From Amycolatopsis bartoniae (GTDB lineage: Bacteria > Actinomycetota > Actinomycetes > Mycobacteriales > Pseudonocardiaceae), in the NCBI RefSeq assembly GCF_014191255.1, contig NZ_JACHWH010000004.1, forward strand, positions 299,001 through 363,000: DNA of 64,000 nucleotides. Direction: 5' to 3'. Below, one piece after another: positions 37,362-64,000 of the stretch. Made by a program: the position numbers and the translations under genes. A model generated the notes under the pieces. That model was not told the origin of the DNA. It made no database searches and was given only the letters and a program-made list of their open reading frames with translations. The stretch's first letter is position 1. Every line of letters starts with the position of its first letter.

Positions 37362-39226
37362 CCACGCTCACCGCTCCGTTCGAGATCGCGGGGCGGACGG
37401 CGCCGAGCCGCGTGCTGTTCGGTCCACATGAGACGAACCTCGCGCGCGGCCGGGTGCTGTCCGACCGTCATGTCGCCTACTACGCCGCCCGCGCGGCCGG
37501 TGGCGCCGGGATCATCGTGACCGAGACCGCGAGCGTGCACGACTCGGACTGGCCCTACGAGCGGGCTCCGCTGGCCTCGTTGTGCGGTCCGGGCTGGCGG
37601 TCCGTTGTGGACGCCTGTCGTGGCGCGATCGTGCTGGCGGGGCTCGGACATGCCGGTTCACAGGGCTCCTCGGCGTTCAGCCAGTCCGCGTTGTGGGCGC
37701 CCTCCCGGGTGCCGGACGTGGCCAGCCGCGAGCTGCCAATGGAGCTGGAGGCCGCGGAGATCGAGGCGCTCGTCGCCGGGTTCCGCGACGCCGCCGCGCT
37801 GGCCGTGGAGTCCGGAATGGACGGTGTCGAGATCGACGCCGGGCAGTACTCGTTGCTGCGCCAGTTCTCCTCCGGCCTGACCAACCAGCGGGGCGACGAG
37901 TACGGCACCGACAGGTCGCGGCTGCTCCGGGAAGTCCTCGGTGCGGTGCGGGAGTCCGGTGGGATCGTCGGGCTGCGGCTGTCGTGTGACGAACTGGCTC
38001 CCTGGGCCGGTCTCACACCCGAACAGGCGGCGGTGCTCGCCGCGGATCTCGCCGCGTCGGTCGACTACCTCGTGCCCGTACGCGGCTCGGCGATGAGCGC
38101 CTCCGCGACGCGGCCCGACCTGCACACCGAGCCTGGGTTCAACCTCGACCTGTGCCGCCGGATCACCGAAGCCGTCGACGGCCGGACGCTGACGGTGTTG
38201 CAGGGCAGCGTCGTCGATCCCGCGCAGGCGCAGCAGGCGCTCGACGACGGCGTGGCGAGCCTGGTCGAGATGACGCGGGCGCAGATCGCCGAACCGGAGC
38301 TGGTGAACAAGGTGCGCGCGGGCGCCGCGCCGCGGCCGTGTGTGCTGTCGAACCAGAAGTGCCGGGTGCGCGACAACCGCAACCCGATCGTCTCGTGCAT
38401 CGGCGAGCCGCGCAGCGGGCATGAGACCGAGGATCCCTCCCCGCAAGGCGCCGACGCGCCGGGGGACGTGCTCGTGATCGGCGGCGGTCCGGCGGGGCTG
38501 GAGGCCGCGCGGGTGCTGGCGATGCGCGGGCACCGGGTGGAGCTGCGCGAGCGGTCGGAACACCTGGGCGGAATGCTGCGCGTGGCGGCGAAAGTCGGGG
38601 GCCGGTCGCGGCTCGCGCGTCTCGCCGAGTGGCTGGAGTCCGAGGTTCACCGCCTGGGCGTGCACGTCCGGACCGGGGTCGAGGTCACCGACGTGCCCGC
38701 GGGCGCGATCGTCGCGACCGGCTCGGTGCCGGGGCCCCGGAACTACGTGGTGCACGGCCGCGTCATCGACGTGGTCGACTTCCTCAACGGCGCCGAACTG
38801 CCGTCCGGACCAGTGGTGGTCGCCGATCCGGTGGGTGACTTCGTCGGGGTCGGAGTGGCGGAACTGCTGGCCGCGCAAGGAAGGCAGATCGCGATCGTGA
38901 GCCAGGACCAGGTGATCGGCACGCAGCTCGCGCTCACCGGCGACCTCGCCGACGCCAACACCCGCCTCCAGCAGGCCGGGGTGGCACTGGCGAAGCGGTC
39001 GCTGCTGCGTGAGGTGCACGAGGACCACGTGGTACTCGAAGACGTGTTCACCGCAGAGCGCAGGGAACTCGAAGCCGCCGTCGTCGTCCACTGTGGACAC
39101 CGGTTGCCCGACGAGCTGCCCGGTGCGCTCAGGGCCGGAGACTGCGTCGCCCCTCGCACGGTGCACGAAGCCATCCTCGAAGGCCGTCGCGCGGCGCTGA
39201 CACTCGTGACGGGGGCGTTGGTGTGA
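37358..39226 (+). CDS. Mycofactocin-associated OYE/FadH-type flavoprotein 1
   Basis: A 622-residue oxidoreductase with a 2,4-dienoyl-CoA reductase layout: FMN-binding TIM barrel (about 10-320), an iron-sulfur segment (about 325-350) and a C-terminal FAD/NAD(P) domain with VLVIGGGPAGLEAARVLAMRG at about 369. This is the family called mycofactocin system FadH/OYE oxidoreductase 1. In the 4Fe-4S motif the second cysteine is serine: C328-V-L-S331-N-Q-K-C335 and C347, whereas OYE 2 keeps all four Cys. The cluster may therefore be altered or lost. Substrate unknown. The start overlaps mftC, and it sits where mftD would be expected. Confidence 0.85.
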   Translation: MTTLTAPFEIAGRTAPSRVLFGPHETNLARGRVLSDRHVAYYAARAAGGAGIIVTETASVHDSDWPYERAPLASLCGPGWRSVVDACRGAIVLAGLGHAGSQGSSAFSQSALWAPSRVPDVASRELPMELEAAEIEALVAGFRDAAALAVESGMDGVEIDAGQYSLLRQFSSGLTNQRGDEYGTDRSRLLREVLGAVRESGGIVGLRLSCDELAPWAGLTPEQAAVLAADLAASVDYLVPVRGSAMSASATRPDLHTEPGFNLDLCRRITEAVDGRTLTVLQGSVVDPAQAQQALDDGVASLVEMTRAQIAEPELVNKVRAGAAPRPCVLSNQKCRVRDNRNPIVSCIGEPRSGHETEDPSPQGADAPGDVLVIGGGPAGLEAARVLAMRGHRVELRERSEHLGGMLRVAAKVGGRSRLARLAEWLESEVHRLGVHVRTGVEVTDVPAGAIVATGSVPGPRNYVVHGRVIDVVDFLNGAELPSGPVVVADPVGDFVGVGVAELLAAQGRQIAIVSQDQVIGTQLALTGDLADANTRLQQAGVALAKRSLLREVHEDHVVLEDVFTAERRELEAAVVVHCGHRLPDELPGALRAGDCVAPRTVHEAILEGRRAALTLVTGALV

Positions 39227-41172
39227 GTTACCGGTACCTGTTCTCGCCGTTGCGCCTGGGTCCGCTCGTGGTGCGCAACCGGATCGTGTTCTCGGCCCAC
39301 CTGACCAACTACGCGCAGCACGGCCTGCCCAGCGAGCAGCACGCCGAGTACTACGCGGCGCGCGCGGCCGGTGGCGCCGGGCTGATCATCACCGAGGAGC
39401 ACTCGACCCACCGCACGGACTGGCCGTACGAAAAGCTGATCCACGGCTTCAACCGCGAGGTCATTCCCGGCTACCGGCGCATCACCGAAGCCGTGCACGC
39501 GCACGGCACGCCGATCCTCGCGCAGCTCAACCACAATGGCGGCCAGGCTTCGTCGATGTACTCGCGGCTGCCGGTGTGGGCGCCCTCGCCGGTGCCGGAC
39601 CCGATGTTCCGCGAGGTGCCGAAGGCGATCGACACGCGGGAGATCGCCGAGGTCGTCGCGGGCTACGGCACCGTCGCCGGGCACTGCGCCGAGGGCGGGT
39701 TCGACGGCGTCGAGCTGCAGTGCTCGCACTCCTCGATCGTGCGCGGTTTCCTGTCCCCGGCGACGAACAAGCGCACCGACTCCTACGGCGGTTCGCTGGA
39801 GAACCGGGCCCGGATCCTGCTGGAGATCATCGACGCCGTGCGCGAGGCCATCGGGCCCGAGCGCGCGCTCGGAGTCCGGTTGTGCGGGGACGAGCTGATC
39901 GAGGGCGGCACCACGATCGACGAGGCGGTCGAGGTGGCGAAGCTGGTGGAGGCGACCGGCAAGGTCGACTACATCAACACCTCCATCGGAGTGGCCACCT
40001 CGACACTGTTCATGATCGAGGCGTCGATGGCCATCCCGCCCGGCTACGCGCTGTTCATCGCCAACGCGATCCGTGAGGCCGTGCGGCTGCCGGTGATCGG
40101 CGTCGGCCGGATCAAGGACCCGGTGCAGGCCGAACGTGCGCTCTCCGAAGGGCACTGCGACCTGGTCGGCGTGGTGCGCGGCCAGATCGCGGACCCGGAC
40201 TTCGTCGCCAAGGCCCGCGCCGGGCACGCGCCCGAGATCCGCACCTGCCTGTCGTGCAACCAGGAGTGCGTCGGCCGGATGGGCCTCAACCGCTGGCTCG
40301 GCTGCATCGAAAACCCGCGCACGGGCAGGGAAAGCGTGCCGCTGCCGATGCCGGGGCCACGGCCGAAGCGCGTGCTGGTCGTCGGCGGCGGCCCGGCGGG
40401 GCTGCAGGCCGCGTCCACCGCCGCGCAACGCGGGCACCACGTGACGTTGTTCGAGCGCAACGAGGGCACCGGCGGTCAGGTCACGCTCGCCGCGAGCGTG
40501 CCCAGCCGCGCCGAGTTCCTCGACGTGGTGCGGAACCTGCTCGCCGAATGCCAGCGCTACGGCGTGGACCTCAAGACCGGTGCCGAGGCCACCGCCGACC
40601 TGCTGCGCTCGGAGTCGCCGGACGCCGTCGTGCTCGCGACGGGCGCGAAACCGCAGGCGCCGTACTGGGCGAACGGGCTCGACCGCGTGGTGGACGTGCG
40701 GGACGTGCTCGAAGGGCGCGCGGCGCCGGAGGGCGAGGTCGTGGTGCTCGACGACCTCGGGTTCCACCAGGCCACGTCGGTCGCGGAGCTGCTGGCGGAC
40801 CGCGGCTGCTCGGTGCGGCTGACCACCTCGGGCATGGTGGTGGGGCAGGACCTCGGCGTCACGCTGGACATGGAGACGTTCAACGTCCGCGCGCACGCGA
40901 AGGGCATCCGGCAGCACACCGACGAGGTGATCCTGGCCGCGTCCGAAGTGGACGGACGAATCGTGTTGCAGGTGCTCACGCACACCACCGGTGTCACGCG
41001 GGAGGTCGTCTGCGACTGGGTGGTCTGCGCGACCCACCAGGCGCCCGAGGACGAGCTGTGGCACCAGTTGAAGGACGCGCCGTTCCCCGTGCACCGGGCC
41101 GGGGACTGCGTCACGCCGCGCCGCGCGCACGCGGCCGTCGTCGAGGGACACCGGGTGGGGGTGGCGCTGTGA
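39223..41172 (+). CDS. Mycofactocin-associated OYE/FadH-type flavoprotein 2
   Basis: A 649-residue partner of the previous protein with the same three-part layout. The TIM barrel starts YLFSPLRLGPLVVRNRIVFS and contains HNGGQASSMYSRLPVWAPSP. The iron-sulfur motif is intact (CLSCNQEC then GCIENP). The FAD domain has VLVVGGGPAGLQAASTAAQRG (about 386), and a later NAD(P)-type segment begins VVVLDDLGFHQATSVAELL. FadH-type enzymes use NADPH to reduce conjugated C=C bonds via FAD, 4Fe-4S and FMN. The substrate is unknown, and reduction of an enone or of a mycofactocin precursor is a guess. GTG start overlaps the previous stop. Confidence 0.85.
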   Translation: MSYRYLFSPLRLGPLVVRNRIVFSAHLTNYAQHGLPSEQHAEYYAARAAGGAGLIITEEHSTHRTDWPYEKLIHGFNREVIPGYRRITEAVHAHGTPILAQLNHNGGQASSMYSRLPVWAPSPVPDPMFREVPKAIDTREIAEVVAGYGTVAGHCAEGGFDGVELQCSHSSIVRGFLSPATNKRTDSYGGSLENRARILLEIIDAVREAIGPERALGVRLCGDELIEGGTTIDEAVEVAKLVEATGKVDYINTSIGVATSTLFMIEASMAIPPGYALFIANAIREAVRLPVIGVGRIKDPVQAERALSEGHCDLVGVVRGQIADPDFVAKARAGHAPEIRTCLSCNQECVGRMGLNRWLGCIENPRTGRESVPLPMPGPRPKRVLVVGGGPAGLQAASTAAQRGHHVTLFERNEGTGGQVTLAASVPSRAEFLDVVRNLLAECQRYGVDLKTGAEATADLLRSESPDAVVLATGAKPQAPYWANGLDRVVDVRDVLEGRAAPEGEVVVLDDLGFHQATSVAELLADRGCSVRLTTSGMVVGQDLGVTLDMETFNVRAHAKGIRQHTDEVILAASEVDGRIVLQVLTHTTGVTREVVCDWVVCATHQAPEDELWHQLKDAPFPVHRAGDCVTPRRAHAAVVEGHRVGVAL

Positions 41173-42068
41173 AGCCCGTACTCGCGGTCGTCGTCGTGCG
41201 TGACGGCGTGCTGCCGCTCGGCGCGGACGAAACCGTGGCCGAAGCCGGTGGCGCGGCGCTGCTCGTCGGCACCGGCGTCAAGGAGGCCGCCGGTGAACTG
41301 CCGTCGTTGAGCACCGGCTGGCTCGCCGGCAACGGCGCCTTCGCGCCCGGCCGCTGGGCGCGGCAGCTCGCGAAGGTGCTGGCGGACACCGAACGCGTGC
41401 TGCTGCCCGCGTCGGCCGACGGCCGTGACCTCGCGCCCCGGCTCGCCGCCGAACTGGGCCGCCCCCTGCTGGCCGGGGCGATGCGCGTGACCGGCCAGGG
41501 CGCGGAAGTGGCGCGCTGGGGTGGCCGCGTGTGCGTCGACCTCGTCGCCGACGGGCCGTTCGTCGCGACGCTGCAACCGGGTGTCCGGGGGAGCGTGCCG
41601 GCACAATGCCAGACGCTCGACGAGATCACCCTGCCCGCCGCCGACGCCCGTGACGTGACGGTCGTCGAGGTGCTCGACCCCGAGCCGGGCACGGTGGACC
41701 TCGCCGAAGCACCGCGGATCTTCGGCGCCGGTGCCGGGCTGGGCGGCCCGGAAGCCGTGGCGCTGCTGGAAAAGGTGGCCACCGCGATGGGCGCCTCGCT
41801 CGGCGCGACCCGGGTGGTCACCGACGCGGGGTGGACGGGTTACCAGCGGCAGATCGGCACCACCGGCGTGGTGGTGCACCCCGAGCTGTACGTCGCGTTC
41901 GGGATCTCCGGCGCGGCGCAGCACCTCGGCGGGCTCGGCGATCCCGCGCACGTGGTGAGCGTGAACACCGACCCGTCGTGCCCCATGACCACCATGGCGG
42001 ACCTCGGTATCGTCGCTGACGCCCCCGCCGTCCTCGCCGAGCTGGCCCGGATCCTGGAGGTGCGATGA
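41169..42068 (+). CDS. etfA: Electron transfer flavoprotein alpha subunit (mycofactocin-associated)
   Basis: A 299-residue EtfA-type protein. The C-terminal FAD-binding domain is clear (GAGAGLGGPEAVALLEKVA, VTDAGWTGYQRQIGTTG, VVHPELYVAFGISGAAQHLGG, VNTDPSCPMTTMADLGIVAD). The N-terminal part is a less conserved Rossmann-like half. With EtfB (43716) it would form a heterodimer carrying FAD and passing electrons to the FixC/FixX pair encoded between them. The ATGs and stops of etfA, fixC and fixX all overlap by 4 bases. The group forms part of the mycofactocin operon, so its electron donor is probably a mycofactocin-linked enzyme. Confidence 0.88.
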   Translation: MKPVLAVVVVRDGVLPLGADETVAEAGGAALLVGTGVKEAAGELPSLSTGWLAGNGAFAPGRWARQLAKVLADTERVLLPASADGRDLAPRLAAELGRPLLAGAMRVTGQGAEVARWGGRVCVDLVADGPFVATLQPGVRGSVPAQCQTLDEITLPAADARDVTVVEVLDPEPGTVDLAEAPRIFGAGAGLGGPEAVALLEKVATAMGASLGATRVVTDAGWTGYQRQIGTTGVVVHPELYVAFGISGAAQHLGGLGDPAHVVSVNTDPSCPMTTMADLGIVADAPAVLAELARILEVR

Positions 42069-43417
42069 CCTACGCCGGACCGGGTTCGGAGTCCACTGTG
42101 GTCGGTGAGGTGACGAGGACGTTCGACGTCGTCGTGGTCGGCGCCGGACCCGCGGGCTCGGCCGCCGCGCTCGAAGTGGCACGCGCCGGGCATTCCGTCG
42201 CCCTCGTCGAGCGGGGTCCGTTCCCCGGCTCCAAGAACGTCTACGGCGGGGTGGTCTACGGGCGCGTCCTCGACGAGCTGGTGCCGCGGTGGTGGGAGCG
42301 GATGCCCGTGCAGCGCTGGGTGACCCGCCGCTCGACCATGGTCATGACGCCGACGCAGGCGCTCACCGTCGACTTCCGGACGCAGGACTGGGGCAGCCCG
42401 CCGTACAACGGGGCCACCGCGCACCGCGCCGACCTGGACGCGTGGCTCGCCGAGCTGGCCATCGAGGCGGGCGCGGTGCTCATACCGTCCACTGTGGCCA
42501 CTGGGTTGCTGCGGGACCGCTCGGGGCAGGTCGTCGGCGTGCGCACCGACCGGCCGGACGGCGACCTCACCGCGGGCGTGGTCATCGCCTGTGACGGGGT
42601 GAACTCGTTCCTGGCCAAGGAAGCCGGCATGTACCGCGTCGCGAACGAGGCCGCGCACCTGACGCTGGGCGTCAAGCAGACCCTCGCGCTGCCCCGCCAG
42701 GCCATCGAGGAGCGGTTCGCGGTGAGCGGCCGCGACGGCGTGGACATCGAGATCCTCGGCTGCACGCGCGGCATCCCCGGCGGCGGCTTCCTGTACACGA
42801 ACCTGGACTCCGTCAGCATCGGCGTGGTGCTGGGCCTCGAAGGCATCCGCGACGCCAGGACCCGGCCGGAGGAGCTGATCGCGGACCTCAAGCGGCATCC
42901 GGCCGTCGCGCCGCTGATCAAGGGTGGCGAGCAGATCGAGCACTCCGCGCACCTCATCCCCGAGGGCGGCTACCACGCGATGCCCGAGCTGATCGGCGAC
43001 GGCATGCTCGTCGCCGGGGACGCCGCGGCGATGTGCCTGGCCGCCGGGATCTGGCTGGAGGGCGTGAACTTCGCACTCGGCGCCGGGATGTACGCCGGGC
43101 GTGCGGCCGCCGCCGCGCTGGCGGCGGGGGACACGTCGAAACAGGGCCTCGCCGGGTACCGCACGCTGCTGGAACGCTCGTTCGTGCTGGCCGACCACCG
43201 CAGGCTGGCGAACTTCCCGCAACTCGTGCTGTCGGACCGGGTGCAGCGCGACTACCCTGGGTTTCTCTGCGACGTCGTGCAAGGGCTGTTCCAGGTCGAC
43301 AACCCGCAGCCGAAGCCGGGCCTGCGTACGCTGGTGAGGCGCAGCGCCCGCCGCAACGGCGTGCGGATGCGTGACCTGGTGCGGGACTCCTGGACCGGAA
43401 TGCGGGGGCTGCGATGA
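42065..43417 (+). CDS. fixC: FixC/ETF-quinone oxidoreductase-like flavoprotein
   Basis: A 450-residue FAD protein of the FixC/ETF-dehydrogenase family. The dinucleotide-binding motif VVVVGAGPAGSAAALEVARAGHSVALVERG lies at about residues 19-48 (quoted here as GAGPAGSAAALEVARAG), and the SKNVYGGVVYGRVLDEL segment is typical. The FAD domain ends with LIGDGMLVAGDAAAMCLA. ETF-QO proteins accept electrons from ETF and reduce quinone; the Fe-S part is here a separate protein, FixX, as in FixABCX. It may be membrane-associated. Start and stop overlap both neighbours. Confidence 0.88.
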   Translation: MTYAGPGSESTVVGEVTRTFDVVVVGAGPAGSAAALEVARAGHSVALVERGPFPGSKNVYGGVVYGRVLDELVPRWWERMPVQRWVTRRSTMVMTPTQALTVDFRTQDWGSPPYNGATAHRADLDAWLAELAIEAGAVLIPSTVATGLLRDRSGQVVGVRTDRPDGDLTAGVVIACDGVNSFLAKEAGMYRVANEAAHLTLGVKQTLALPRQAIEERFAVSGRDGVDIEILGCTRGIPGGGFLYTNLDSVSIGVVLGLEGIRDARTRPEELIADLKRHPAVAPLIKGGEQIEHSAHLIPEGGYHAMPELIGDGMLVAGDAAAMCLAAGIWLEGVNFALGAGMYAGRAAAAALAAGDTSKQGLAGYRTLLERSFVLADHRRLANFPQLVLSDRVQRDYPGFLCDVVQGLFQVDNPQPKPGLRTLVRRSARRNGVRMRDLVRDSWTGMRGLR

Positions 43418-43713
43418 CCGACCAGCGTTACGTCGAGCCGGCGTTCGAGGACGTACTGTCCACTGTGGAGTTCCGTGTCGCCGAGCGCCCGCACATCACC
43501 GTGGACACCGAGGTCTGCCGGTCGTGCACCACGCAGGCGTGTGTCTACGCGTGCCCGGCGGACCTGTTCGTGCCGACCAGCGACGGCGGCATCCTGTTCA
43601 ACTACGAGCAGTGCTTCGAGTGCGGCACCTGCTACCAGATCTGCGACGGCCAGGGCGCGATCAGCTGGAGCTACCCCGACGGGGGCTACGGCGTCGTGTT
43701 CCGGAAGGGATAG
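43414..43713 (+). CDS. fixX: FixX-type ferredoxin
   Basis: A 99-residue ferredoxin-like partner of FixC. Cysteine motifs: CRSCTTQACVYACPADLF and CFECGTCYQIC, with spacing suited to one 4Fe-4S cluster (the second CxxCxxxC-type set being the conserved one). Additional Cys residues could support another cluster. It corresponds to the C-terminal iron-sulfur domain of ETF-quinone oxidoreductase. Placement directly after fixC, with a 4-base overlap, confirms a split ETF-QO-like pair. Confidence 0.88.
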   Translation: MTDQRYVEPAFEDVLSTVEFRVAERPHITVDTEVCRSCTTQACVYACPADLFVPTSDGGILFNYEQCFECGTCYQICDGQGAISWSYPDGGYGVVFRKG

Positions 43714-43715
43714 CG

Positions 43716-44543
43716 ATGCTCGTCGTGGCCGCTCTGCGCTGGAGCGATCAGCGCGCCGCCGTCGACCCGCTGACGGGCGAGGTCCGCACCGACGCCCGCA
43801 CCAGCGGGGCGAGCGCGGCCGACCGGGCCGCGCTGGAGCACGCGCTGCGCCTCGCCGAGGCCTTCGACGGGCGGTGTCTCGCCGTCACCGTCGGGCCGCC
43901 CGAGGCGGAGGAGATGCTGCGCGAGGCGCTGGCCACCGGGGCGCACGAGGTCGTGCGGGTCGACGGCCCGGCCGCGACGGTGACCGAGGACGGCAGCGAG
44001 ACCGCGCGGCTGCTGCTCGACGGCCTGCCCGACCGGCCGGACGTCGTGCTGTGCGGGGACTCGTCGGCCGACCGCGGCACCGGCAGCACGCCGGCGTTCC
44101 TGGCGCAGCGGCTCGGCGCGGCCCAGGCGCTCGGCCTCGTCGAGCTGAGCGTCGCGGGCGGCGAGCTGCGGGGCGTCCGGCGGCTCGACGGCGGACGGCG
44201 GGAGCGGCTGGTGTTCGGGCCGCCCGCGGTGTGCTCGGTGGAACCGGCGGACGTCGTGCTGCGCCGCGCGTCCCTGCCCGCCGTGATCGCGTCGAGGACC
44301 GCGGAAATCCCGGTCGCGCGGCCGGGCTCGCTGCGTTACCTGCGGGCCGGGGCGCCTCGCGCGTACCGGCCGCGAGCGCGTGCGTTACCGGCCCCGCGCG
44401 AAGCGGACCCGCACCAGCGGATGCTGTCGTTGACGGGTGCGCTGGTCGAGCGCACCCCGCCCACGGTCGTGCGGCCCGCGACCGCCGAGGAGGCCGCCCG
44501 CCAGCTGCTGGACTACCTGCGACGGCGCGGTTACACGCGATGA
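43716..44543 (+). CDS. etfB: Electron transfer flavoprotein beta subunit (mycofactocin-associated)
   Basis: A 275-residue EtfB-type protein. Recognisable features: LVVAALRWSDQRAAVDP at the N-terminus, LEHALRLAEAFDGRCLAVTVGPPEAEEMLREALATGA (AMP-binding region), DVVLCGDSSADRGTGSTPAFLAQRLGAAQA, and the C-terminal strand with PAVIASRTAEIPVARPG. It pairs with EtfA. Starts two bases after the fixX stop and overlaps the next SDR gene. The C-terminus is extended and Pro/Arg-rich, which is longer than in typical EtfB (about 255). Confidence 0.85.
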   Translation: MLVVAALRWSDQRAAVDPLTGEVRTDARTSGASAADRAALEHALRLAEAFDGRCLAVTVGPPEAEEMLREALATGAHEVVRVDGPAATVTEDGSETARLLLDGLPDRPDVVLCGDSSADRGTGSTPAFLAQRLGAAQALGLVELSVAGGELRGVRRLDGGRRERLVFGPPAVCSVEPADVVLRRASLPAVIASRTAEIPVARPGSLRYLRAGAPRAYRPRARALPAPREADPHQRMLSLTGALVERTPPTVVRPATAEEAARQLLDYLRRRGYTR

Positions 44544-45322
44544 GCCGGGTGGCGGTGGTGACCGGAGCGGCGCGGGGCATCGGCGCCGCGGTGGTCGAAC
44601 GCCTCGCCACGGACGGCTGGCGGGTCGTGGCCGTGGACGTCGCCGCCGACCAGCCCGGGTTGCACTACTCCTTGGGGCGCAAGGAAGATCTGGTCGCCCT
44701 CGCCCGTCGCTGGCCGGGCCGGGTGCTCGACCTGGTAGCCGACGTGCGCGAGCCGGAAGCGTTGACCGAAGCCGTCGCGCTCGCCGAGCGGGAGTTCGGC
44801 GGGCTCGACGCCGCCGTTGCCGCCGCCGCGGTCATGGCGGGCGGGAAACCGTTGTGGGAGACCACGGACGCGGAGTGGGACGCGTTGTTCGACGCCGGGG
44901 TGCGTGGAGTGTTCCACCTCGCCCGCGCCGCCGTGCCCGCGTTGCTGCGACGGCCCGAGCCGCGGTCGGGCCGCTTCGTCGCGCTCGCGTCCGCAGCCGC
45001 GCACCGCGGGTTGTGGCACCTCGCGGGCTACAACGCTTCGAAGCACGCCGTCGTGGGCCTGATCCGGGGCCTGGCCACGGATCTGCGTGGCACCGGCGTG
45101 ACGGCCACGGCGGTGTCGCCGGGCTCCACGCGCACGGCGATGCTCGACGCGACGGCCGCGCTCTACGACCTCGACGACGTCGAGGAGTTCTCGCAGCACC
45201 AGCTCGTGGAACGGCTGCTGGACCCGGCCGAGGTCGCCGCCGCGGTGTGCTGGCTGTGCGGGGAGCAGTCGTCGGCCGTCACCGGAACCGTCGTGCACGC
45301 CGACGGGGGGTTCACGGCATGA
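44540..45322 (+). CDS. SDR oxidoreductase of the mycofactocin cluster
   Basis: A 260-residue short-chain dehydrogenase. Cofactor motif VVTGAARGIGAAVVERLATDG, catalytic YNASKHAVVGL, and the C-terminal HADGGF end typical of SDRs. The usual NNAG is changed to AAAAVMAGG, which is unusual. SDRs encoded with mycofactocin carry tightly bound nicotinamide and often need mycofactocin as external electron acceptor. Substrate is unknown. The start overlaps the etfB stop and the stop overlaps mftF. Confidence 0.82.
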   Translation: MSRVAVVTGAARGIGAAVVERLATDGWRVVAVDVAADQPGLHYSLGRKEDLVALARRWPGRVLDLVADVREPEALTEAVALAEREFGGLDAAVAAAAVMAGGKPLWETTDAEWDALFDAGVRGVFHLARAAVPALLRRPEPRSGRFVALASAAAHRGLWHLAGYNASKHAVVGLIRGLATDLRGTGVTATAVSPGSTRTAMLDATAALYDLDDVEEFSQHQLVERLLDPAEVAAAVCWLCGEQSSAVTGTVVHADGGFTA

Positions 45323-46641
45323 AGCTGGAGGTTCGCCTCGACCCGGGAACGAAGGTCCTCGGGCGGACCCTGCTGGGCGGCGCGCCGCTGCGCGTGCTGC
45401 GGCTGTCCGAGCCGGGCGCGCGGATCGTGCGCGAGTGGCGCCACGGGGCTGTCGTGACCACGCCACAGCAACGGAAGCTGGCGGACAGGCTCATCGACGC
45501 CGGAATGGCGCACCCGCTCTACGGGGAAACGCACCTCACGCGCGCGGACGTCACGGTCGTCGTGCCCGCACGCGACCCGGAGGCGCTCCCGCCCGGCGCC
45601 GACGTGGTGGTCGACGACGGCTCCCGCACGCCGATTTCCGTTGCCGCGGAACGGCATCCGGTCGCACGCGGCCCGGCAGCGGCCCGCAACACCGGCCTGC
45701 GGCACGTGCGGACGGAACTGACCGCGTTCCTCGACGCCGACACCGTTCCCCAGCCCGGCTGGCTCGACAGTCTTTTGCCGCACTTCGAGGACCCACAGGT
45801 GGTCGCCGTCGGGCCCCGGGTGCGCAGCGCTCCCGGTTCGTCGGTGGTCGAGCGGTACGAACAGGCCCGCTCGTCGCTCGACCTCGGCGACGGGCCCGGC
45901 CCGGTCCGCCCGGGCGCGCGCGTGACGTACCTGCCGACGGCCGCGCTCGTCGTGCGCACCGCCGCGGTCCGGGAGATCGGCGGGTTCGACGAGCGGCTGC
46001 GGTTCGGTGAGGACGTCGACCTCGTGTGGCGGCTCGTCGCCCAAGGTGGCCGGGTGCGCTTCGAACCGGCGTCCGAAGTGGTCCACCAGCCGCGGAAAAC
46101 CTGGCGGGCGTGGGCGAAGCAGCGGTTCGACTACGGCACCTCCGCCGCCCCGCTCGCGAAACGGCACGGGCACAAGGCGATCGCGCCGCTGAAGATCTCC
46201 GGCTGGACCGCGCTGGCGTGGGCCCTCGCGGCAGTGCGGAAACCCGGGCTCGGCGCGGCGGTCGCGCTGGGCACCGCGGCGTTGCTGCCACGCAAGCTCC
46301 GGCCGGTCGGCGTACCGCCCCGGGAAGCGCTCACCCTCGCCCTGCGCGGTCACCTCGGCGCCGGGCGGTACCTCGCGGACGTCCTCACCCGCACGTGGGG
46401 GCCGGTCGCGATGCCGTTGCTGGCGGCGACTCCACGCGGCCGGATCGTGCTCGCGCTGGCGCTGGCCCGGCACCTCACGGAGTGGCGGCGCCTGCGGCCG
46501 GACCTCGATCCGGTGCGCTGGCTGCTGGCCCGCACCGCCGACGATTTCGCCTACGGCGCAGGGGTCTGGCGTGGTTGTGCCCGGGAAAGGACCGCCCTGC
46601 CGTTGGTTCCGGACCTGTCGAACTGGCCGGGCAGGAAATGA
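45319..46641 (+). CDS. mftF: Mycofactocin glycosyltransferase MftF
   Basis: A 440-residue GT2-family transferase that attaches a beta-1,4-glucan chain to premycofactocin. The start has the MftF pattern (KVLGRTLLGGAPLRVLRLSEPG); the GT2 domain covers about 80-310, with VVVPARD, VVDDGSRTPIS, the FLDADTVPQPGW DxD motif and the acceptor motif GFDERLRFGEDVDLVWRL. The C-terminal region has hydrophobic helices (about 315-400). Coupled to the neighbours by overlapping starts and stops. Confidence 0.93.
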   Translation: MKLEVRLDPGTKVLGRTLLGGAPLRVLRLSEPGARIVREWRHGAVVTTPQQRKLADRLIDAGMAHPLYGETHLTRADVTVVVPARDPEALPPGADVVVDDGSRTPISVAAERHPVARGPAAARNTGLRHVRTELTAFLDADTVPQPGWLDSLLPHFEDPQVVAVGPRVRSAPGSSVVERYEQARSSLDLGDGPGPVRPGARVTYLPTAALVVRTAAVREIGGFDERLRFGEDVDLVWRLVAQGGRVRFEPASEVVHQPRKTWRAWAKQRFDYGTSAAPLAKRHGHKAIAPLKISGWTALAWALAAVRKPGLGAAVALGTAALLPRKLRPVGVPPREALTLALRGHLGAGRYLADVLTRTWGPVAMPLLAATPRGRIVLALALARHLTEWRRLRPDLDPVRWLLARTADDFAYGAGVWRGCARERTALPLVPDLSNWPGRK

Positions 46642-47342
46642 AGGACCTCGCCTGGCCCGAACTCGTGCCGCGCCTGCTCGCGGTGCCGCTCGGCGCGACC
46701 GAGCAACACGGCCCGCACCTGCCGTTCACGGTGGACACCGAGATCGCCGTCGCCCTCTGCGAACGGCTGGCGCAGCGGCGGAACGACGTGGTGGTCGCGC
46801 CCGCGCTGCCGTACGGCTCCAGCGGCGAGCACGCGGGTTTTCCCGGCACGCTCTCGATCGGGCAGGAGGCCACGGAACACGTCCTCGTCGAGCTCGTGCG
46901 CTCCGCGGACGCGTTCACCGGCGTGGTCCTCGTGTGCGCCCACGGCGGCAACGTCGAGCCGTTGCGCCGCGCGATCGCGAAACTACGGTACGAAGGCCGT
47001 GCCGTGCGCGCGTGGTGTCCCGACGCCCCGCCCGACGACACGCACGCCGGACGCACCGAAACATCGGTGATGCTCGCGTTGCGACCGTCCGCGGTGCGCC
47101 TCGACCGGCTGGAAACCGGTGTCACTGAGCCACTTCCTGCGTTGCTGGACCGGTTGCGGAAAGGAGGTGTGCGTGCCGTGAGCCCCACCGGGACGCTCGG
47201 TGACCCGCGCGGGGCGAGCGCGGAGGAAGGCCGGGAAACTTTGCTCCGGTGGGTGGAAAGTCTACTTAACGCTGTCGGGACGCTGGTTTCGGATGTCATG
47301 ATGAAGCCGTCCGTGCCTGCGACCCACGTCACAAAGAGGTGA
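46638..47342 (+). CDS. mftE: Mycofactocin peptidase MftE (creatininase family)
   Basis: A 234-residue metal-dependent peptidase that releases the crosslinked Val-Tyr dipeptide from the MftA core. Metal ligands are visible in PLGATEQHGPHLPF, VDTEIAVALCERL and CAHGGNVEPLRRA, with DDTHAGRTETSVML in the C-terminal half. Size fits the creatininase fold. The stop is followed 8 bases later by the alcohol dehydrogenase gene; AAAGAGGTGA, the ribosome site of that gene, overlaps the mftE stop. It completes the core maturation set apart from mftD. Confidence 0.93.
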   Translation: MKDLAWPELVPRLLAVPLGATEQHGPHLPFTVDTEIAVALCERLAQRRNDVVVAPALPYGSSGEHAGFPGTLSIGQEATEHVLVELVRSADAFTGVVLVCAHGGNVEPLRRAIAKLRYEGRAVRAWCPDAPPDDTHAGRTETSVMLALRPSAVRLDRLETGVTEPLPALLDRLRKGGVRAVSPTGTLGDPRGASAEEGRETLLRWVESLLNAVGTLVSDVMMKPSVPATHVTKR

Positions 47343-57801: not shown

Positions 57802-59088
57802 TCAGCGTTTGGGGCGTACGGAGAAGGTCAAGCCGAAGTTGTCCAGTGTGGACGGTTGTTTGTGGGCTGGGCCCAGGCGTTGGCCCGAGGTGAGCAGGTA
57901 GTCGCGGCTTTCCATCAACGCCGCCAGGAGGATGCTGGTCACCATCAGTACCAGGTTCCGTGCCGGGCATTCGCCTGGGCCCGCGCTGAACGGGACCAGC
58001 GCCGGGTTCTGCTGGGCCCTGCCGTCCAGCCAGATCTCCGGCGCGAAGCTGTGGGCGTAGGGCAGGTTCTGGTCGTCCCGGTGGAAGAACGGGGTGTACA
58101 CCAGTATCCCCGTTCCCTCTGGCAGGCCCTCGACTTCCTTCGTCGTGTCGCGCAGGATTGCCGGGGTTGTCGGCCAGAGGCGCACCGTGTCCAGGATGCT
58201 CGCCCTCAGGTACGGCAGGTCCGGTGTGGACGGTGCCTCTTCGATCGCGAGCTGGCGGGCGTGGGGGTGCGTCGCCAGCAACGCGAGAGCGCGGAAGGCC
58301 ACCATGCCCGCCGCGTCGAAGGCGAACAGCCAGTGGCCCACCTGGCTCGCCGGATCGTCGTCCTCCGTCTTCGGGGTCCGCGCGATCACCTCGGCCAGGC
58401 TGCCTTCCTCCGCACGCTTGAGGTGCCCCCGCAAGCGGCCCAGAACGCGCTCCTGCAAACCCGCGTGGCGTGGCGAAAGGTAGGACCAGTTCGCCGACAA
58501 CCGCAAGCGGCCCAACAGGTCCGTGGTCGTCTCGTCGTCACGGGCGCTGTCGCCCAGCACAATCCTGCGGACGATTCGCCACCACACCGTCGCGTACTGG
58601 TCCCAGTCCAGCACCCCGGACGTCGGCAGCGCCGCGACCTCCTGCCGGACCCGTTCGATCACCAGCGGCGTCAGGTGGTGCAGCGGCTGTGGCGTCTCCA
58701 GCGCTTTCTCGTTGAACTCACGCCGACGAGCACGGGCCCCGCCCTCCGAAATCAACACGCCGTGCGGCTGGAACTTGTCCAGCGCACGGCGTTTCTCCAG
58801 GTTCGCCGGGCTGAACGGCTCCGGCGACTCCGCCAGCACGTGACCGACCTCGTCGGCCGACAGCACCAGCGCGAACGACCGTCCCGGCACCGCCAGGCGC
58901 AACAGCGGCACGTCGTACTTCGCCCGCAGGTCCTGCATGATCTGCACGGCACTGGTGTCGGCCTGCACCTTCTCCAGCAGCCTCATTACCTTCGGCCGGC
59001 GCTTGATCACGCCACCCGCCAGCGTCGGGCCCAGCACGCCCGTGGCCACCTTCACCGTGTCGAGCCGGGAAGCGGTCGGTGCGCTCAC
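57802..59088 (-). CDS. Cytochrome P450 with non-canonical K-helix
   Basis: A 428-residue P450. The heme-ligand loop is FSAGPGECPARN, with the thiolate Cys in place. The K-helix motif, usually ExxR, reads DTVR (in ILDTVRLWPTTP), and the I-helix region (LFAFDAAGMVAFRAL) lacks the usual acid-alcohol pair. Both differences could alter heme insertion, oxygen activation or reaction type (for example peroxygenase or non-oxidative activity). Its GTG start overlaps the upstream hydrolase stop (GTGA). No ferredoxin gene is adjacent. Substrate unknown; the cluster suggests a small-molecule or polar lipid pathway. Confidence 0.85.
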   Translation of the reverse strand: MSAPTASRLDTVKVATGVLGPTLAGGVIKRRPKVMRLLEKVQADTSAVQIMQDLRAKYDVPLLRLAVPGRSFALVLSADEVGHVLAESPEPFSPANLEKRRALDKFQPHGVLISEGGARARRREFNEKALETPQPLHHLTPLVIERVRQEVAALPTSGVLDWDQYATVWWRIVRRIVLGDSARDDETTTDLLGRLRLSANWSYLSPRHAGLQERVLGRLRGHLKRAEEGSLAEVIARTPKTEDDDPASQVGHWLFAFDAAGMVAFRALALLATHPHARQLAIEEAPSTPDLPYLRASILDTVRLWPTTPAILRDTTKEVEGLPEGTGILVYTPFFHRDDQNLPYAHSFAPEIWLDGRAQQNPALVPFSAGPGECPARNLVLMVTSILLAALMESRDYLLTSGQRLGPAHKQPSTLDNFGLTFSVRPKR

Positions 59089-59993
59089 GCGCGTCCTCCT
59101 CTGACGACCAGGTGCGCGATGCGCGCCGAAGCCTGCTTCGCCTCCGGGAAACTCGCGATCATCCAGGCGTGGAACATGTCCGGGTACTCCCAGTACTCCA
59201 CGGGCACACCGTGCGCCGCCGCCTTGTCGCGGAAACGGCGCGCGTCCGACAGCAGCACGTCACGGGTGCCGACGAACACGCTCAGCGAACCGAGCCCGGT
59301 GACGTCGCCGTTGAGCGGGCTCACCAGGGGATCGGCGGGGTCGAGCCCGCCCGCGTAGAGCCGCCCGGCCTCCAGCAGGCCGTTGATCGCGAGGTACGGG
59401 TCGTGCCGGTCGTATTCGAGCTGCGCCGGGTCGCTCATCGTGATGTCCAGCCACGGCGACAGCAGCACGATCTCCTTCGGCTGCGGACTGCCCTCGTCCC
59501 GCAGCGACTGGGCGAGCACCAGCGCGAGCCCGCCGCCCGCCGAGTCGCCCATCAGGATCTGGTCGTCACTCGCCAGCCCGCTCAGCTTCTCCTTGTACAC
59601 CGCCTTGATCACGGAGATCGTGTCGTTGTAGCGGTTGTCGGGCGCGAGTGGATACAGCGGCGCGGTCGCCGTGCAACCCGTCTCGCTGACGAGCCGCGCG
59701 AGGAACGACCAGTGGTCCTTCTGGATCTGGTGCACGTAGGCGCCACCGTGGAAGTACAGCACGTGCCGCGACGAGTAGCCCCGCCGCGGCCGCAGCGTGT
59801 ACACCGGCCGGTCGTGGATTTCCTGCTTGGTCACCAGGACGCGTTCGCGGACCGAGGCAGGCGGCTCCGCGTCGTCGGGCCGCTGCCTCGGCTCCATGCT
59901 GCGATGCAGCGCGGCCACGTCGGCGAAAGTCTTCTTCCGCCGGGTGAGGCGCATCGCCGCGATCATGGCTCTCGCGTGCAGACTCGGTTTCAC
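59085..59993 (-). CDS. Alpha/beta hydrolase, hormone-sensitive-lipase-like
   Basis: A 302-residue esterase. The oxyanion-hole motif HGGAY (YFHGGAYVHQI), the nucleophile elbow GDSAGGGLALVL, the catalytic Asp in FVGTRDVLLSD and the His in YPDMFHAWMIAS are in the usual order for the HSL family. Expected to hydrolyse short or medium acyl esters or amides. GTG start at 59993. It lies between a CocE-type hydrolase 30 bases upstream and the P450, which it overlaps, so it forms a compact transcription unit. Substrate unknown. Confidence 0.88.
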   Translation of the reverse strand: MKPSLHARAMIAAMRLTRRKKTFADVAALHRSMEPRQRPDDAEPPASVRERVLVTKQEIHDRPVYTLRPRRGYSSRHVLYFHGGAYVHQIQKDHWSFLARLVSETGCTATAPLYPLAPDNRYNDTISVIKAVYKEKLSGLASDDQILMGDSAGGGLALVLAQSLRDEGSPQPKEIVLLSPWLDITMSDPAQLEYDRHDPYLAINGLLEAGRLYAGGLDPADPLVSPLNGDVTGLGSLSVFVGTRDVLLSDARRFRDKAAAHGVPVEYWEYPDMFHAWMIASFPEAKQASARIAHLVVRGGRA

Positions 59994-60023
59994 ACCGACG
60001 GGGTTACCCGGACTCCTGCTCGA

Positions 60024-62048
60024 TCACACGTGGTCCCGCGGGAAGGTGTACCGCCAGTTCCGCGAAAACGCCCGGTGCGGGCCCTCGTAACCGTCCAGCG
60101 TCGCGTGCAGCACGAACTCGTCCGGAGTGCACGTGAGCAGGATCTTCGTGTCCGTCCGTGCTTCCCAGTCGCCGCGCGAGAACGTCATCGACCAGTCGGT
60201 TTCGCCCGCGGGCGAGGCGAAGTCGTCGGCCACGGAGGTGTACCGCTCGTAAGCGCACCGCGACACCTCCAGGTCGATGTCGTCGAACCGCTCGGTGCCC
60301 GCGTCCTTGAGGATCTCCAGCGTCTGCTCGTAGTTCACCAGGTCACGCGAGACCTGCCACTTCTGCCGCGTCGGCTTGACCTGCGTGGTGGAGATCGGCT
60401 GCGCGCCCTCGGGCTCGTCGAACACGTGCGCGCCGACCTCGTCGGTTTCCGTCGTCGGCCGCACCGGCAGGGTCAGGTTGCTTGATCCCGTGTGGACGGT
60501 CAGGCGCGCGGCTTCCGGTGGCGGCCAGGCCAGCGGCCAGTACGACGTGGACAGCGACAGCCGGATGCGGTGCCCCGGCGGAAACGCCTGCGCCACCCCG
60601 TTGAGCGTGATCTCCACCTGGTACCGCTTGCCCGGTTCGAGTGGTTGTGGATCGTCGTGCCCGTCACGGTGGGTGAGGTTCAGCAGCCCGTACGTGACCC
60701 GCGTGGCGCGCCCGTCCGGCGCCACGTCAGACAGCCGCGCGGCCACCATCGCCACGGGCTTGTCCGCGCACACGTCCAGGTGCACCACCGGCGCGCCGAG
60801 GATTTCGCACGTCTCGGTCAGCTCGTCGGTGTCGAACACCAGCGAACCGCCGTCCTCCTCGCGCTGGTCGTACGGCAGGTCCGGCGGCGCGTTGTAGGAC
60901 GCCCACTTCCCGGCGAACTGGCCCACCGACAGCGGCGACTCGACGCTCAGCGCGCGCTCGGGGATCTCCTCACCGGGCTGCGCGATCCGGTGCGGCGCGA
61001 GACAGAGCGTCTGCGGCTTGATGTGCGGCGATGGCCACTCCGGCTCGCCGACCCAGCGGCCGGGCCGGTCCTCGTAGGCCGTCGACGGCGGCACGCTGTC
61101 CTGCATCCACGCCAGCAGCATCGGCCCTGCCATGACGTCGTTGTCGACGCCCTTGAGCCAGTGGTCCCACCAGCGCACGACCTCCTGCAGGTAGCCGATC
61201 GCCGGGCCGGGCTGGCCCAGGTGCGGGTACTTGTGCGACCACGGCCCGACCAGGCCCTTGCGCGGCACGTCGAGGTTCGCCAGCAGGCGCGTGACGGCGT
61301 TGGAGTAGCCGTCGGCCCAGCCGCTGGACGCGAGCACCGGCACCCGCACCGACGAGTAGTCCTCGCACACCGAGGCGTGCCGCCAGTAGTCGTCGCGGCG
61401 CTGGTGGCGCAGCCATTCGTCGACCCACGGGCCCGCCGCCTCGATCCGCTCCCGCCACATGTCGCGCCACCGGTCCCCGACGAGCGCCGGGTCCGGCGGC
61501 AGCGTGCTGTAGGCGAACATGGTGCCGGCCTCGGCGAGGTTGTCCGACAGCATGCAGCCGCCCATGTAGTGGAAGTCGTCGCTGTACCGGTCGTCGGTGA
61601 ACGACGAGATGACGATCGCCCGCAGGCTCGGCGGCCGCCGGGCGGCGACCTGCAGCGAGTTGAAGCCACCCCACGAGATGCCCATCATCCCGGTGTTCCC
61701 GTCGCACCAGGGCTGCCGCGCGATCCAGGCCAGCACGTCCTCGGCGTCGCGCTGTTCCTGTTCGAGGTACTCGTCCACCAGCACGCCCTCGGACTCGCCC
61801 GTGCCGCGGATGTCCACGCGCACGCACGCGTAACCGTGGCCCGCCAGGTACGGGTGGTGGATCGAGTCGCGCCCGGCCGTCAGATCCCTTTTGCGGTAAG
61901 GAATGTATTCGAGGATGCCGGGCACCGGCTGGTCGTCGGAACAGACCGGCCGCCAGATCCGCGCGGCGAGCCGGGTGCCGTCGGAGACCGGTATCCACAC
62001 GTGCTCGGACTCGGTGATTTCGTACGGCAGGGAGCTGACCGCGCGCAA
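60024..62048 (-). CDS. CocE/NonD-family hydrolase (X-Pro dipeptidyl-peptidase-like)
   Basis: A 674-residue enzyme with an N-terminal alpha/beta hydrolase domain. The nucleophile lies in MGISWGGFNSLQ, the Asp in ASSGWADGYSNAV and the His in GPWSHKYPHLG. A C-terminal jelly-roll domain follows, with PPGHRIRLSLSTSYWPLAWPP. CocE and PepX proteins hydrolyse esters or X-Pro amides. The start is TTG at 62048, 8 bases after a GGAGG site; the product then reads MRAVSSLPYEI. No signal peptide is apparent, so the enzyme is probably cytosolic. It separates the ATP-grasp gene (77 bases upstream) from the esterase gene. Confidence 0.88.
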   Translation of the reverse strand: MRAVSSLPYEITESEHVWIPVSDGTRLAARIWRPVCSDDQPVPGILEYIPYRKRDLTAGRDSIHHPYLAGHGYACVRVDIRGTGESEGVLVDEYLEQEQRDAEDVLAWIARQPWCDGNTGMMGISWGGFNSLQVAARRPPSLRAIVISSFTDDRYSDDFHYMGGCMLSDNLAEAGTMFAYSTLPPDPALVGDRWRDMWRERIEAAGPWVDEWLRHQRRDDYWRHASVCEDYSSVRVPVLASSGWADGYSNAVTRLLANLDVPRKGLVGPWSHKYPHLGQPGPAIGYLQEVVRWWDHWLKGVDNDVMAGPMLLAWMQDSVPPSTAYEDRPGRWVGEPEWPSPHIKPQTLCLAPHRIAQPGEEIPERALSVESPLSVGQFAGKWASYNAPPDLPYDQREEDGGSLVFDTDELTETCEILGAPVVHLDVCADKPVAMVAARLSDVAPDGRATRVTYGLLNLTHRDGHDDPQPLEPGKRYQVEITLNGVAQAFPPGHRIRLSLSTSYWPLAWPPPEAARLTVHTGSSNLTLPVRPTTETDEVGAHVFDEPEGAQPISTTQVKPTRQKWQVSRDLVNYEQTLEILKDAGTERFDDIDLEVSRCAYERYTSVADDFASPAGETDWSMTFSRGDWEARTDTKILLTCTPDEFVLHATLDGYEGPHRAFSRNWRYTFPRDHV

Positions 62049-62125
62049 GTTCTAGTCCTCCTCTGTGTCTTGCGGGACACCCGCACCCGATCGGCCTCGA
62101 TGACCGGCTTCGCCATTATCGGTCA

Positions 62126-63418
62126 TCAGGCCTCTTGGACGTCCTCGAACTCGAAGTGCAGCGAATCGATGGTCCGCTGGTACTTCTCCTTCAGTTCCGC
62201 TTCGCTGTCCGCGCCGACGTAGACGAAGGCCAGCTCGTAGCTGTAGCTGTCCTGGGCGTCCATATCGGACAGTCGCTGGCCCTCCTGCGGCACGAGGTCC
62301 ACGACCACACCCGGGATGTCCCGCTGGATCCGCTCGATCTCCTCGTCGGTCGGCAGCCTGCGCACGATCCCGTCGGTGAACCGGCGGTGGTACCACTTCG
62401 CGCCGATCCGGTACTCGCCCTTCCCGTGCGGCATGTCCGGCCGGTTGCCCAGGCCCAGCTGCACCATGCAGTGGTGGTTGGGCACGCCGTCGACGAACTC
62501 GAACATCTCCGCGTGCGACTGCGAGTGCCGCGCGTTGATCTCCAGCACGTTCACCTCGCCCGTGTCGGGGCGGGCGAAGAACTCGATGGAGAACGTCGAG
62601 TTGTCGAGGCCCAGCTGCTTGATGACCTTCTTCGACACCTCGATCATCTGCCGCACCACCGGTTCCGGCAGCTGCGAGGGGTACTGGTGGCGCAGGAACG
62701 ACGAGCTGTCGGGGTAGTTGATCGAGTCGAGCGCGCCGTTGACGACGACCTCGCCGTTGTAGACGTAACCCTCGGTCGCGGCCTGTTCACCCGTCAGCGA
62801 CTCCTCGGCGAGGCACGCGAGCGCGCCCGCGTCGGCCACCTCCGGCGGCAGCTGCAGCTCCGGCGCGTGGTCGAGCACGTACTGGAACGGTTTGCCGACG
62901 CGCCCGATGCCGTCCCGGATCTCCGCCACCGCGTCGGCGAAGTCGTCCTCGTTCTTGGCCTGGAACGCCAGTTCCGAGGAGAACGACTTGACGGGCTTGA
63001 GCCACATGGGGAACGACAGGTCGGCGGGCGGTTTCTCGTCGCCGTCGAGGTCGACGAGCGCGAACTTCGGCAGGTTGTCGATCACCTTCGCCTGTTCGAG
63101 GCGGCTCCAGTACTTGTGCTCGGCCTTGATGACGCCTTCCAGGTTGGGGTGCGGCACGCCGTAGCGCTTGCCCAGGATCGGCACGATCGACGTGGACGGG
63201 AAGTCCCAGTAGCCCACGATCGCGTCGATGTTCCCGTCGAAGGCGTCCAGCTGCCGGACCGCCTTGTCGATCAGGTCGGCGATGGGGATTTCGCCTTCCT
63301 GGATCTCGGGCACGGTGAGCAGCGTGTGGTACCGGTAGTTCTCGGCTCCGGGCACCCGCTGCAGGGTTCTCAGGTTGTTCTCGTCCAGTCCTACGACGAA
63401 AATGTTCTTGGTAGTCAC
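62126..63418 (-). CDS. ATP-grasp ligase-like protein
   Basis: A 430-residue ATP-grasp protein. It has an N-terminal Rossmann-like part (KNIFVVGLDENNLRTLQRVPG), a central ATP-grasp fold with FPMWLKPVKSFSSELAFQ and GYVYNGEVVVNGA, and the metal/ATP-binding IEFFARPDTGEVNVLEINARHSQSHAE. ATP-grasp enzymes activate a carboxylate as an acyl phosphate and join it to an amine or thiol. GTG at 63418 is the only start giving the VTTKNIFVVG N-terminus. It probably leads the leftward group that contains the CocE-type hydrolase, the esterase and the P450. Substrates unknown. Confidence 0.85.
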   Translation of the reverse strand: MTTKNIFVVGLDENNLRTLQRVPGAENYRYHTLLTVPEIQEGEIPIADLIDKAVRQLDAFDGNIDAIVGYWDFPSTSIVPILGKRYGVPHPNLEGVIKAEHKYWSRLEQAKVIDNLPKFALVDLDGDEKPPADLSFPMWLKPVKSFSSELAFQAKNEDDFADAVAEIRDGIGRVGKPFQYVLDHAPELQLPPEVADAGALACLAEESLTGEQAATEGYVYNGEVVVNGALDSINYPDSSSFLRHQYPSQLPEPVVRQMIEVSKKVIKQLGLDNSTFSIEFFARPDTGEVNVLEINARHSQSHAEMFEFVDGVPNHHCMVQLGLGNRPDMPHGKGEYRIGAKWYHRRFTDGIVRRLPTDEEIERIQRDIPGVVVDLVPQEGQRLSDMDAQDSYSYELAFVYVGADSEAELKEKYQRTIDSLHFEFEDVQEA

Positions 63419-63484
63419 GCGACTTCGGGTCCCCGGGGGTGATCGCGGGTAAACCAACCCCCCGTCTGGGTTAGGGTGCTGGGC

Positions 63485-64000
63485 GTGGCGGATTTGAGCG
63501 AGTACCGGCGGAAACGGGATCCGAAGCGGACTCCCGAGCCGGTGCCTGCCGAGGAGGCGCTGCCGAAGGGCGACGACGACACGTTCGTCATCCAGGAGCA
63601 CCACGCCCGCCGCCTGCACTGGGACGTGCGTTTCGAGCGCGAGGGGGTGCTCGTTTCCTGGGCGGTGCCGAAGGGTCTGCCCCCGTTGCCGGACACGCCG
63701 CGCCTCGCCGTGCACACCGAGGACCACCCGTTGGAGTACTCGACCTTCGAGGGCACGATTCCCGCGGGCGAGTACGGCGGCGGCGTGATGAAGATCTGGG
63801 ACCGCGGCTTCTACGAGACGCTGCACTGGGGCGACCACAAGGTCGAGGTGGTCCTGCACGGCTCGCGGGTCAGGGGCAAGTACCTGTTCGTCAACCGGCA
63901 TTCCCAGGAGGAACAACGGGACTGGATCGTCCGACGGCTGGATCCCCCGCAGCGCAAGGATTTCGCGGAGCTGCCGGAGTTCGTGCAACCGATGGTGCCG
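63485..64000 (+). CDS. ligD: LigD-type 3'-phosphoesterase domain, start of ATP-dependent ligase gene (partial)
   Basis: The first 172 residues run off the right edge. They contain the LigD phosphoesterase domain: FVIQEHHARRLHWDVRFE, SWAVPKGLPPLPDTPRLAVH, TEDHPLEYSTFEGTIPAGEY and GGGVMKIWDRG, with His residues (HHARRLH and DHPLEY) as metal ligands. The last residues (FVQPMVP) look like the beginning of an ATP-dependent ligase domain. LigD proteins repair double-strand breaks with Ku. A polymerase domain is absent at the N-terminus, so this looks like a PE-ligase type. GTG start at 63485. Confidence 0.88.
   Translation, partial: MADLSEYRRKRDPKRTPEPVPAEEALPKGDDDTFVIQEHHARRLHWDVRFEREGVLVSWAVPKGLPPLPDTPRLAVHTEDHPLEYSTFEGTIPAGEYGGGVMKIWDRGFYETLHWGDHKVEVVLHGSRVRGKYLFVNRHSQEEQRDWIVRRLDPPQRKDFAELPEFVQPMVP

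Follow-up and report, generated by a model that had tools for sequence, protein, structure and literature searches.

A predicted general-stress operon in Amycolatopsis combines a conserved ligase-hydrolase pair with an esterase and an atypical cytochrome P450

What would an ATP-grasp ligase, two hydrolases and a cytochrome P450 do together in one compact gene cluster? We addressed this question for four genes on the minus strand of a 64,000-nucleotide stretch of the Amycolatopsis bartoniae genome (contig NZ_JACHWH010000004.1, positions 299,001 to 363,000), hereafter the window, in whose coordinates all features are given. In order of transcription they encode the ligase (62126..63418; GTG start, 430 residues), a CocE/NonD, S15-type alpha/beta hydrolase with a PepX_C domain (60024..62048; TTG start, 674 residues), an HSL-type (Abhydrolase_3) esterase (59085..59993; GTG start, 302 residues) and the P450 (57802..59088; GTG start, 428 residues), in which D-x-x-R replaces E-x-x-R and the I-helix threonine is missing. 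The genes are spaced by 77, 30 and -4 bases, the P450 start overlapping the esterase stop by 4. A preliminary description had reported these open reading frames at 57802-63418 with the same gaps, called the P450 unusual and seen no scaffold-making enzyme, all of which held; it had read the set as a free-standing four-enzyme biosynthetic or detoxification route, a reading that is not supported, since the four-gene form was observed only in Amycolatopsis and the P450 occurs mostly without the ligase. The promoter and the neighbouring genes point instead to the general stress response, which that reading did not include. The explanation that we prefer, and hold about as strongly as we doubt it, is a general-stress operon in which a core pair produces an amide- or peptide-like compound and turns it over, the esterase and the P450 being additions. 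It builds on the gene content, its conservation, the conservation of the promoter and the stress-island context, all observed here.

Scans against Pfam and NCBIfam gave the same enzyme identities as the preliminary description. The ligase matched PF13535 (ATP-grasp_4) with 37.6 bits against a cut-off of 27, and of the nucleotide and metal residues of ATP-grasp enzymes K144, E279, E293 and R297 were invariant in 37 of 37 aligned rows and N295 in 36 (here and below, the window's row included); it therefore belongs among the ATP-grasp ligases. Apart from one proteasome match at chance level, its matches among solved structures were to generic ATP-grasp relatives only (4dim, carbamoyl-phosphate synthases, BL00235 and VanA). 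The CocE hydrolase matched PF02129, PF08530 and TIGR00976 (CocE_NonD; 234 bits against a cut-off of 66.3), and its GxSxG nucleophile S125, together with D246 and H272, was invariant in 34 of 34 rows, as was the tyrosine of an IPYRK segment, which presumably has the role it plays in CocE. The Ser-Asp-His triad is common to this enzyme and the CocE cocaine esterase/S15 family (PDB 3i2g, 1ju3), from which it differs by about 150 C-terminal residues outside the Pfam matches. The esterase matched PF07859 (Abhydrolase_3), and its HGG motif, S142, D236 and H266, numbered from a start 9 residues later than that of the called reading frame, were invariant in 15 of 15 rows. The P450 matched PF00067 with 63.7 bits over residues 268-394 only. 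Neither a scaffold enzyme nor a carrier domain was found in the four proteins by these scans, the flanks being only partly annotated, and the four genes include no importer, ferredoxin or reductase.

We next asked how far the cluster is conserved. Among 19 Amycolatopsis genomes, the window's own included, 14 shared one arrangement: ligase, esterase and P450 follow each other on a single strand as in the window, with about 2 kb left free at the place of CocE. This order is kept beyond chance and is consistent with the compact unit described before. The CocE gene itself was not searched in this sample and was observed in the nine Amycolatopsis loci that were read. Gene by gene, the ligase was present in 15 genomes, the esterase in 15 and the P450 in 16; of the remaining genomes, one (G340) held diverged copies in a different arrangement, one the P450 alone and three none. 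The closest named relatives with the same order were A. sacchari, which has the whole operon (82% for the P450 by tblastn), and four further named Amycolatopsis species, some of whose loci may duplicate species of other genomes counted. In a sample of 298 genomes of the order, the ligase was found in 29 (E <= 1e-40) and the P450 in 58 (E <= 1e-50); CocE was matched strongly in 32 (E <= 1e-150; 28 at >= 59% identity). Of the 30 ligase loci in the order, 24 had CocE as the next gene downstream, on the same strand and within 100 bases, and in genus g16 three of eight loci had ligase, CocE and esterase, with a short esterase match in a fourth. The P450 was present in 22 of the 29 ligase genomes compared to 36 of the 269 others, so that 36 of the 58 P450-bearing genomes had no ligase match at the thresholds used. 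Across the phylum, 13 of 198 genomes, including the window's own, had the ligase; at the 12 ligase loci outside the order, ligase and CocE followed each other in order in five and were reversed in one, while three loci ended at a contig edge right after the ligase and three had no CocE in the stretch. The pair also occurs in other actinobacterial classes. Loci L074 and L075, which repeat the window, were excluded from most counts. Thus, the gene set that the preliminary description proposed to seek across actinomycetes is kept beyond the species, and unrelated control of its genes was not found, but its four-gene form is an extension observed in one genus, and the conserved unit is the ligase-CocE pair. 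At L062:4550-7084 the ligase gene is interrupted by about 1.3 kb with two other open reading frames, which looks like an insertion.

Upstream of the ligase lies a predicted sigma-B/sigma-F-type promoter, GTTTAC-N14-GGGGAC (63429..63454, minus strand), whose -10 hexamer is 10 bases from the ligase GTG, so that the transcript should have a very short leader or none. In published regulon studies, the -10 region of Streptomyces coelicolor SigB-homologue promoters has a near-invariant GGG and A as its fifth base, with mapped examples such as GTTTAC-N14-GGGCAC (rrnEp2) and GTTTAT-N15-GGGGAC (SCO4189p) (PMC8346170). The Mycobacterium smegmatis sigF consensus is GTTT-N14-19-GGGTA (PMC4694148). The window site, of the GTTT...GGGNA type and at a suitable distance, fits the promoter type of a sigma-B/sigma-F regulon; the GGGGA variant was admitted after this site was seen, though the published rule covers it. 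Among 27 gene heads in the window, only that of this operon carried GTTT-N14-17-GGGNA, compared to 2 of 225 control heads. The controls were taken at 20 hand-picked places, each in a different genome, and 19 of these genomes belong to the window's family. The ligase was preceded by GTTT-N13-17-GGG[GTA]A in all 9 Amycolatopsis loci, in all 8 loci of genus g16, each with GGGTA as the -10 form, and in the single locus of genus g10, against 2 of the 225 controls; L062 and L141-L143, whose ligase start was not located, were left out of the scoring by genus. SigH/R-type sites (GGAA[CT]-N16-19-GTT) were not enriched (P450 heads, 0 of 20; ligase heads, 1 of 34; other heads, 28 of 741). Stress control of the operon is therefore well supported at the level of sequence.

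The surroundings of the ligase and P450 genes suggest the same control. Measured against other heads of the islands themselves, strict sigma-B sites showed a modest enrichment before the ligase (8 of 34) and none before the P450 (2 of 20 compared to 80 of 741). Among the outside control heads, 1 of 225 carried the strict form GTTT-N13-17-GGGTA; it was more frequent at the remaining gene heads both in ligase loci (31 of 344) and in loci with the P450 only (22 of 310; Fisher test, 2e-6 and 5e-5 respectively, not corrected for relatedness), and the form GNNT-N14-16-GGGTA[CT] was found at 47 of 344, 30 of 310 and 4 of 225 heads. Locus L010 was left out of both counts, as were L013, L014, L148 and L152-L154 from the P450-only set. 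Thus, the islands as a whole are enriched in sigma-B sites. Furthermore, 107 of 330 neighbour genes of P450-only loci had a homologue in a locus of another genus, compared to 10 of 281 control genes, in a test of 16 matched pairs that used 16 of the 28 P450-only loci. A Pfam scan of representative ligase or P450 loci found hemerythrin, PAS-ANTAR, SRPBCC, GCS2 ligase, haem-oxygenase-like iron enzyme, FAD/Rieske oxidoreductase and topoisomerase IB families; other genes there we take, from their sequences, to be Ku, LigD and UDG. In 13 further P450 loci, chosen by hand and non-randomly from the 58 P450 genomes, 12 of them from other families, the promoter preceded the P450 itself in six and a SigB/F-type sigma gene lay within about 6 kb in three (two scanned), genes inside operons being scored as well as heads, and with no matched control for the families met there. 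In Rhodococcus the P450 adjoins a catalase gene.

Relatives of the P450 in alphaproteobacteria also lie among stress genes. Ferritin-like, extracytoplasmic function (ECF) sigma, manganese catalase or DUF892 genes were near the P450 in three of four annotated loci (L155, L157 and L170, not L171). The published EcfG-like site GGAAC-N16-CGTT was not found directly upstream of the alphaproteobacterial P450s, and no EcfG-like site preceded the P450 in Telmatospirillum (L013). A looser form, GGAAC-N16-18-GTT, was present in 5 of 5 alphaproteobacterial plasmid loci read, a weak result for a form set post hoc and lacking a background. On the Rhizobium etli plasmid p42f (L155:8301-10284) a P450 of the family lies directly downstream of the ECF sigma gene RHE_RS26680. 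This gene may be EcfG2/PF00052, a regulator of oxidative-stress survival (PMC3188799); its NCBIfam matches give no such name.

The P450 itself departs from the standard motifs. Its fold is supported by a structural model (predicted local distance difference test score, pLDDT, 72; Foldseek E 9e-11; VIA Z about 22 to many P450s), and the haem-ligand motif FxxGxxxC is present as FSAGPGEC, with the cysteine kept in 40 of 40 rows. The ExxR of helix K, typical of P450s though not defining and with exceptions, reads DTVR here; 13 of 40 rows have D and 27 have E, as in the ETVR of A. sacchari, and the arginine is kept. Helix I reads WLFAFDAAG in place of [AG]Gx[DE]T, which carries the threonine of the acid-alcohol pair. 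No row of 40 has threonine at residues 258-262, one (L070) having serine at 259, and profile alignments allow two registers, with alanine opposite the threonine in both and Asp258 opposite the acid in one. P450s without an I-helix threonine are known, such as P450eryF and CYP74, so that its loss is no proof that monooxygenase activity is absent. We infer that the enzyme either takes proton delivery from a group of its substrate or bypasses the standard route of oxygen activation. The best solved relative by profile, at 65 bits, was CYP184A1 of Streptomyces avermitilis (PDB 7wzl), whose fold the model shares (Z 22.4, root-mean-square deviation 3.7 over 368 residues, 21% identity), with other P450s tied in Z; helix I reads AGHETT in CYP184A1 and FDAAG in the modelled protein. 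In the P450 tree, 13 of 40 rows carry the label "near the ligase". Their placement needs five changes of state, four of them forced by well-supported branches, which may be gains or losses and suggest repeated association with the ligase. An NCBIfam match to ApyO was too weak to be used (46 bits against a cut-off of 525). In L071:8902-9933 a ligase-adjacent P450 lacks the part matching residues 116-194, probably through a deletion.

What might the operon make? We infer the class of substrate, the product and the direction of flux as follows. A factor of the sigma-B/sigma-F family would read the promoter at 63454-63429, and a single transcript would span the four genes. The ATP-grasp enzyme would activate a carboxylate as an acyl phosphate and couple it with an amine to form an amide or peptide-like compound, and the CocE/S15 hydrolase would cleave or transfer that acyl group. 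Under osmotic or oxidative stress the pair would thus make the compound and turn it over; the esterase and the P450 of the Amycolatopsis operon would modify it further. Amide- or peptide-like chemistry is suggested by the enzyme classes and by two genomic contexts: the CocE gene adjoined ATP-binding cassette (ABC) importer genes in 9 of 9 alphaproteobacterial plasmid loci, hand-picked from 216 records with a CocE match, one of the nine also having Xaa-Pro peptidase and oxoprolinase-family genes nearby, and an AbgT transporter and an M20 peptidase preceded the ligase-CocE pair in 2 of 3 loci of g33 (one scanned, one by cluster). Predicted synthesis and turnover by the pair would resemble dipeptide osmolyte systems, which combine a ligase and a peptidase. 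One of these, the stress-linked N-acetylglutaminylglutamine amide (NAGGN) system, has a ligase with an acetyltransferase domain and a peptidase; the similarity is one of outline, for the operon's ligase has ATP-grasp-type domains only, without the acetyltransferase domain, and no asparagine-synthase-type gene is among the four. Beside the ligase in g1, g16 and g10 stand genes for a GCS2 carboxylate-amine ligase and a haem-oxygenase-like iron enzyme; at L121, L122, L123, L124, L126, L127, L128, L144 and L145 both recur with a HemK-like methyltransferase and mostly also an FAD/Rieske oxidoreductase.

The strongest competing explanation, possible but clearly less probable than the one we prefer, is that general-stress genes gather in islands as regulon neighbours without a shared pathway, only the ligase-CocE pair being functional. 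The recurrence of neighbour families at P450-only loci fits this well, as does the occurrence of the P450 and the esterase without the pair; in 23 of 29 ligase genomes the P450 was at least 27 kb away, on another contig or not found. What it explains poorly is the 4-base overlap of esterase and P450 in the window, the order kept across most of the genus and the repeated ligase association hinted at by the P450 tree. Several observations likewise weigh against a general-stress operon with an amide-forming core. Stress islands hold many unrelated genes, and the esterase and the P450 may be regulon passengers; in the first set, the promoter stood at only 1 of 20 P450 heads. The form found before the ligase occurred in only 3 of 13 genera scored and in none of the other ten, a much looser form adding loci of three of those ten (control, 6 of 225). 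Apart from these, the GGGNA form preceded the ligase at L207, from another family, and L219, a diverged copy, which are the only two with a ligase promoter among 11 further loci with usable upstream sequence. Furthermore, the counts are not independent, the ligase matches coming mainly from two genera; the predicted ligase structure is poor (pLDDT 56), and searches of solved structures returned no relative that fixes its substrate. The CocE homologues in importer context share 46-51% identity, and that context may not carry over.

A small dedicated natural-product route, in which the P450 and the hydrolases would tailor a stress-triggered amide made by the ligase, seems improbable to us. Ligase, P450 and hydrolases are a familiar tailoring set, and the GCS2 ligase and iron enzyme adjoining in g1, g16 and g10 would suit it, but no scaffold or carrier domain is present in the four proteins, although the partly annotated flanks could hold transport or resistance genes, and both the ligase-CocE pair and the P450 range more widely, each on its own. 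A plain biosynthetic cluster was discarded because the four-gene unit was observed only in the genus and pair and P450 are distributed separately. Least probable of all, in our estimate, is that the operon degrades or detoxifies a compound taken up or formed under stress, with the ligase conjugating it: two hydrolases, a P450 and the importers beside alphaproteobacterial CocE homologues speak for it, while the operon has no importer, ferredoxin or reductase of its own, and an ATP-costing ligase ahead of hydrolases would be unusual for catabolism.

A broader and more tentative idea, which we are inclined to doubt, is that of a stress-metabolite module not yet described. An actinobacterial ligase-hydrolase pair would make a new protectant of amide- or peptide-like type and turn it over, and in some lineages a P450 family lacking the I-helix threonine would have joined the pair. 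This family would have been recruited to general-stress control separately in actinobacteria (sigma-B/F type) and in alphaproteobacteria (EcfG-like sites) and would perform non-standard haem chemistry such as peroxide use. Actinobacterial general-stress regulons hold many genes of unknown role. The unit described here is compact and conserved, its chemistry is recognisable and it has one strong predicted promoter, which offers a way to find out what small molecule such a regulon produces; it also raises the question of why distant bacteria would include a P450 in their general stress response. The promoter type resembles that of the M. smegmatis sigma-F regulon and of the S. coelicolor sigma-B-homologue promoters (PMC4694148, PMC8346170). 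According to the former, the M. smegmatis P450 MSMEG_1775 (GTTT-N15-GGGTA, position 9 from the start codon) was lowered in a sigF mutant (PMC4694148); MSMEG_1775 and the operon's P450 are alike by class name and promoter type. The term "ATP-grasp" does not occur in the text of that paper (PMC4694148). In agreement with the preliminary description, which knew of no pathway with this gene set, a keyword search of the open-access literature returned no paper on it, which is not proof of absence from print, and none holding both ATP-grasp and CocE among the matches listed.

Divergent from the operon and outside it, 57 bases from the ligase start, begins a gene (63476..64000, plus strand, its beginning only) for what we take from its sequence to be a LigD-type protein. 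Elsewhere in the window, recognised by eye only, 35131-47342 looks like a mycofactocin-type cluster (TetR, a small protein, a radical SAM protein, oxidoreductases and a creatininase-like protein), and 14554-23137 looks like an mce-type transport operon with YrbE-like and Mce-like open reading frames.

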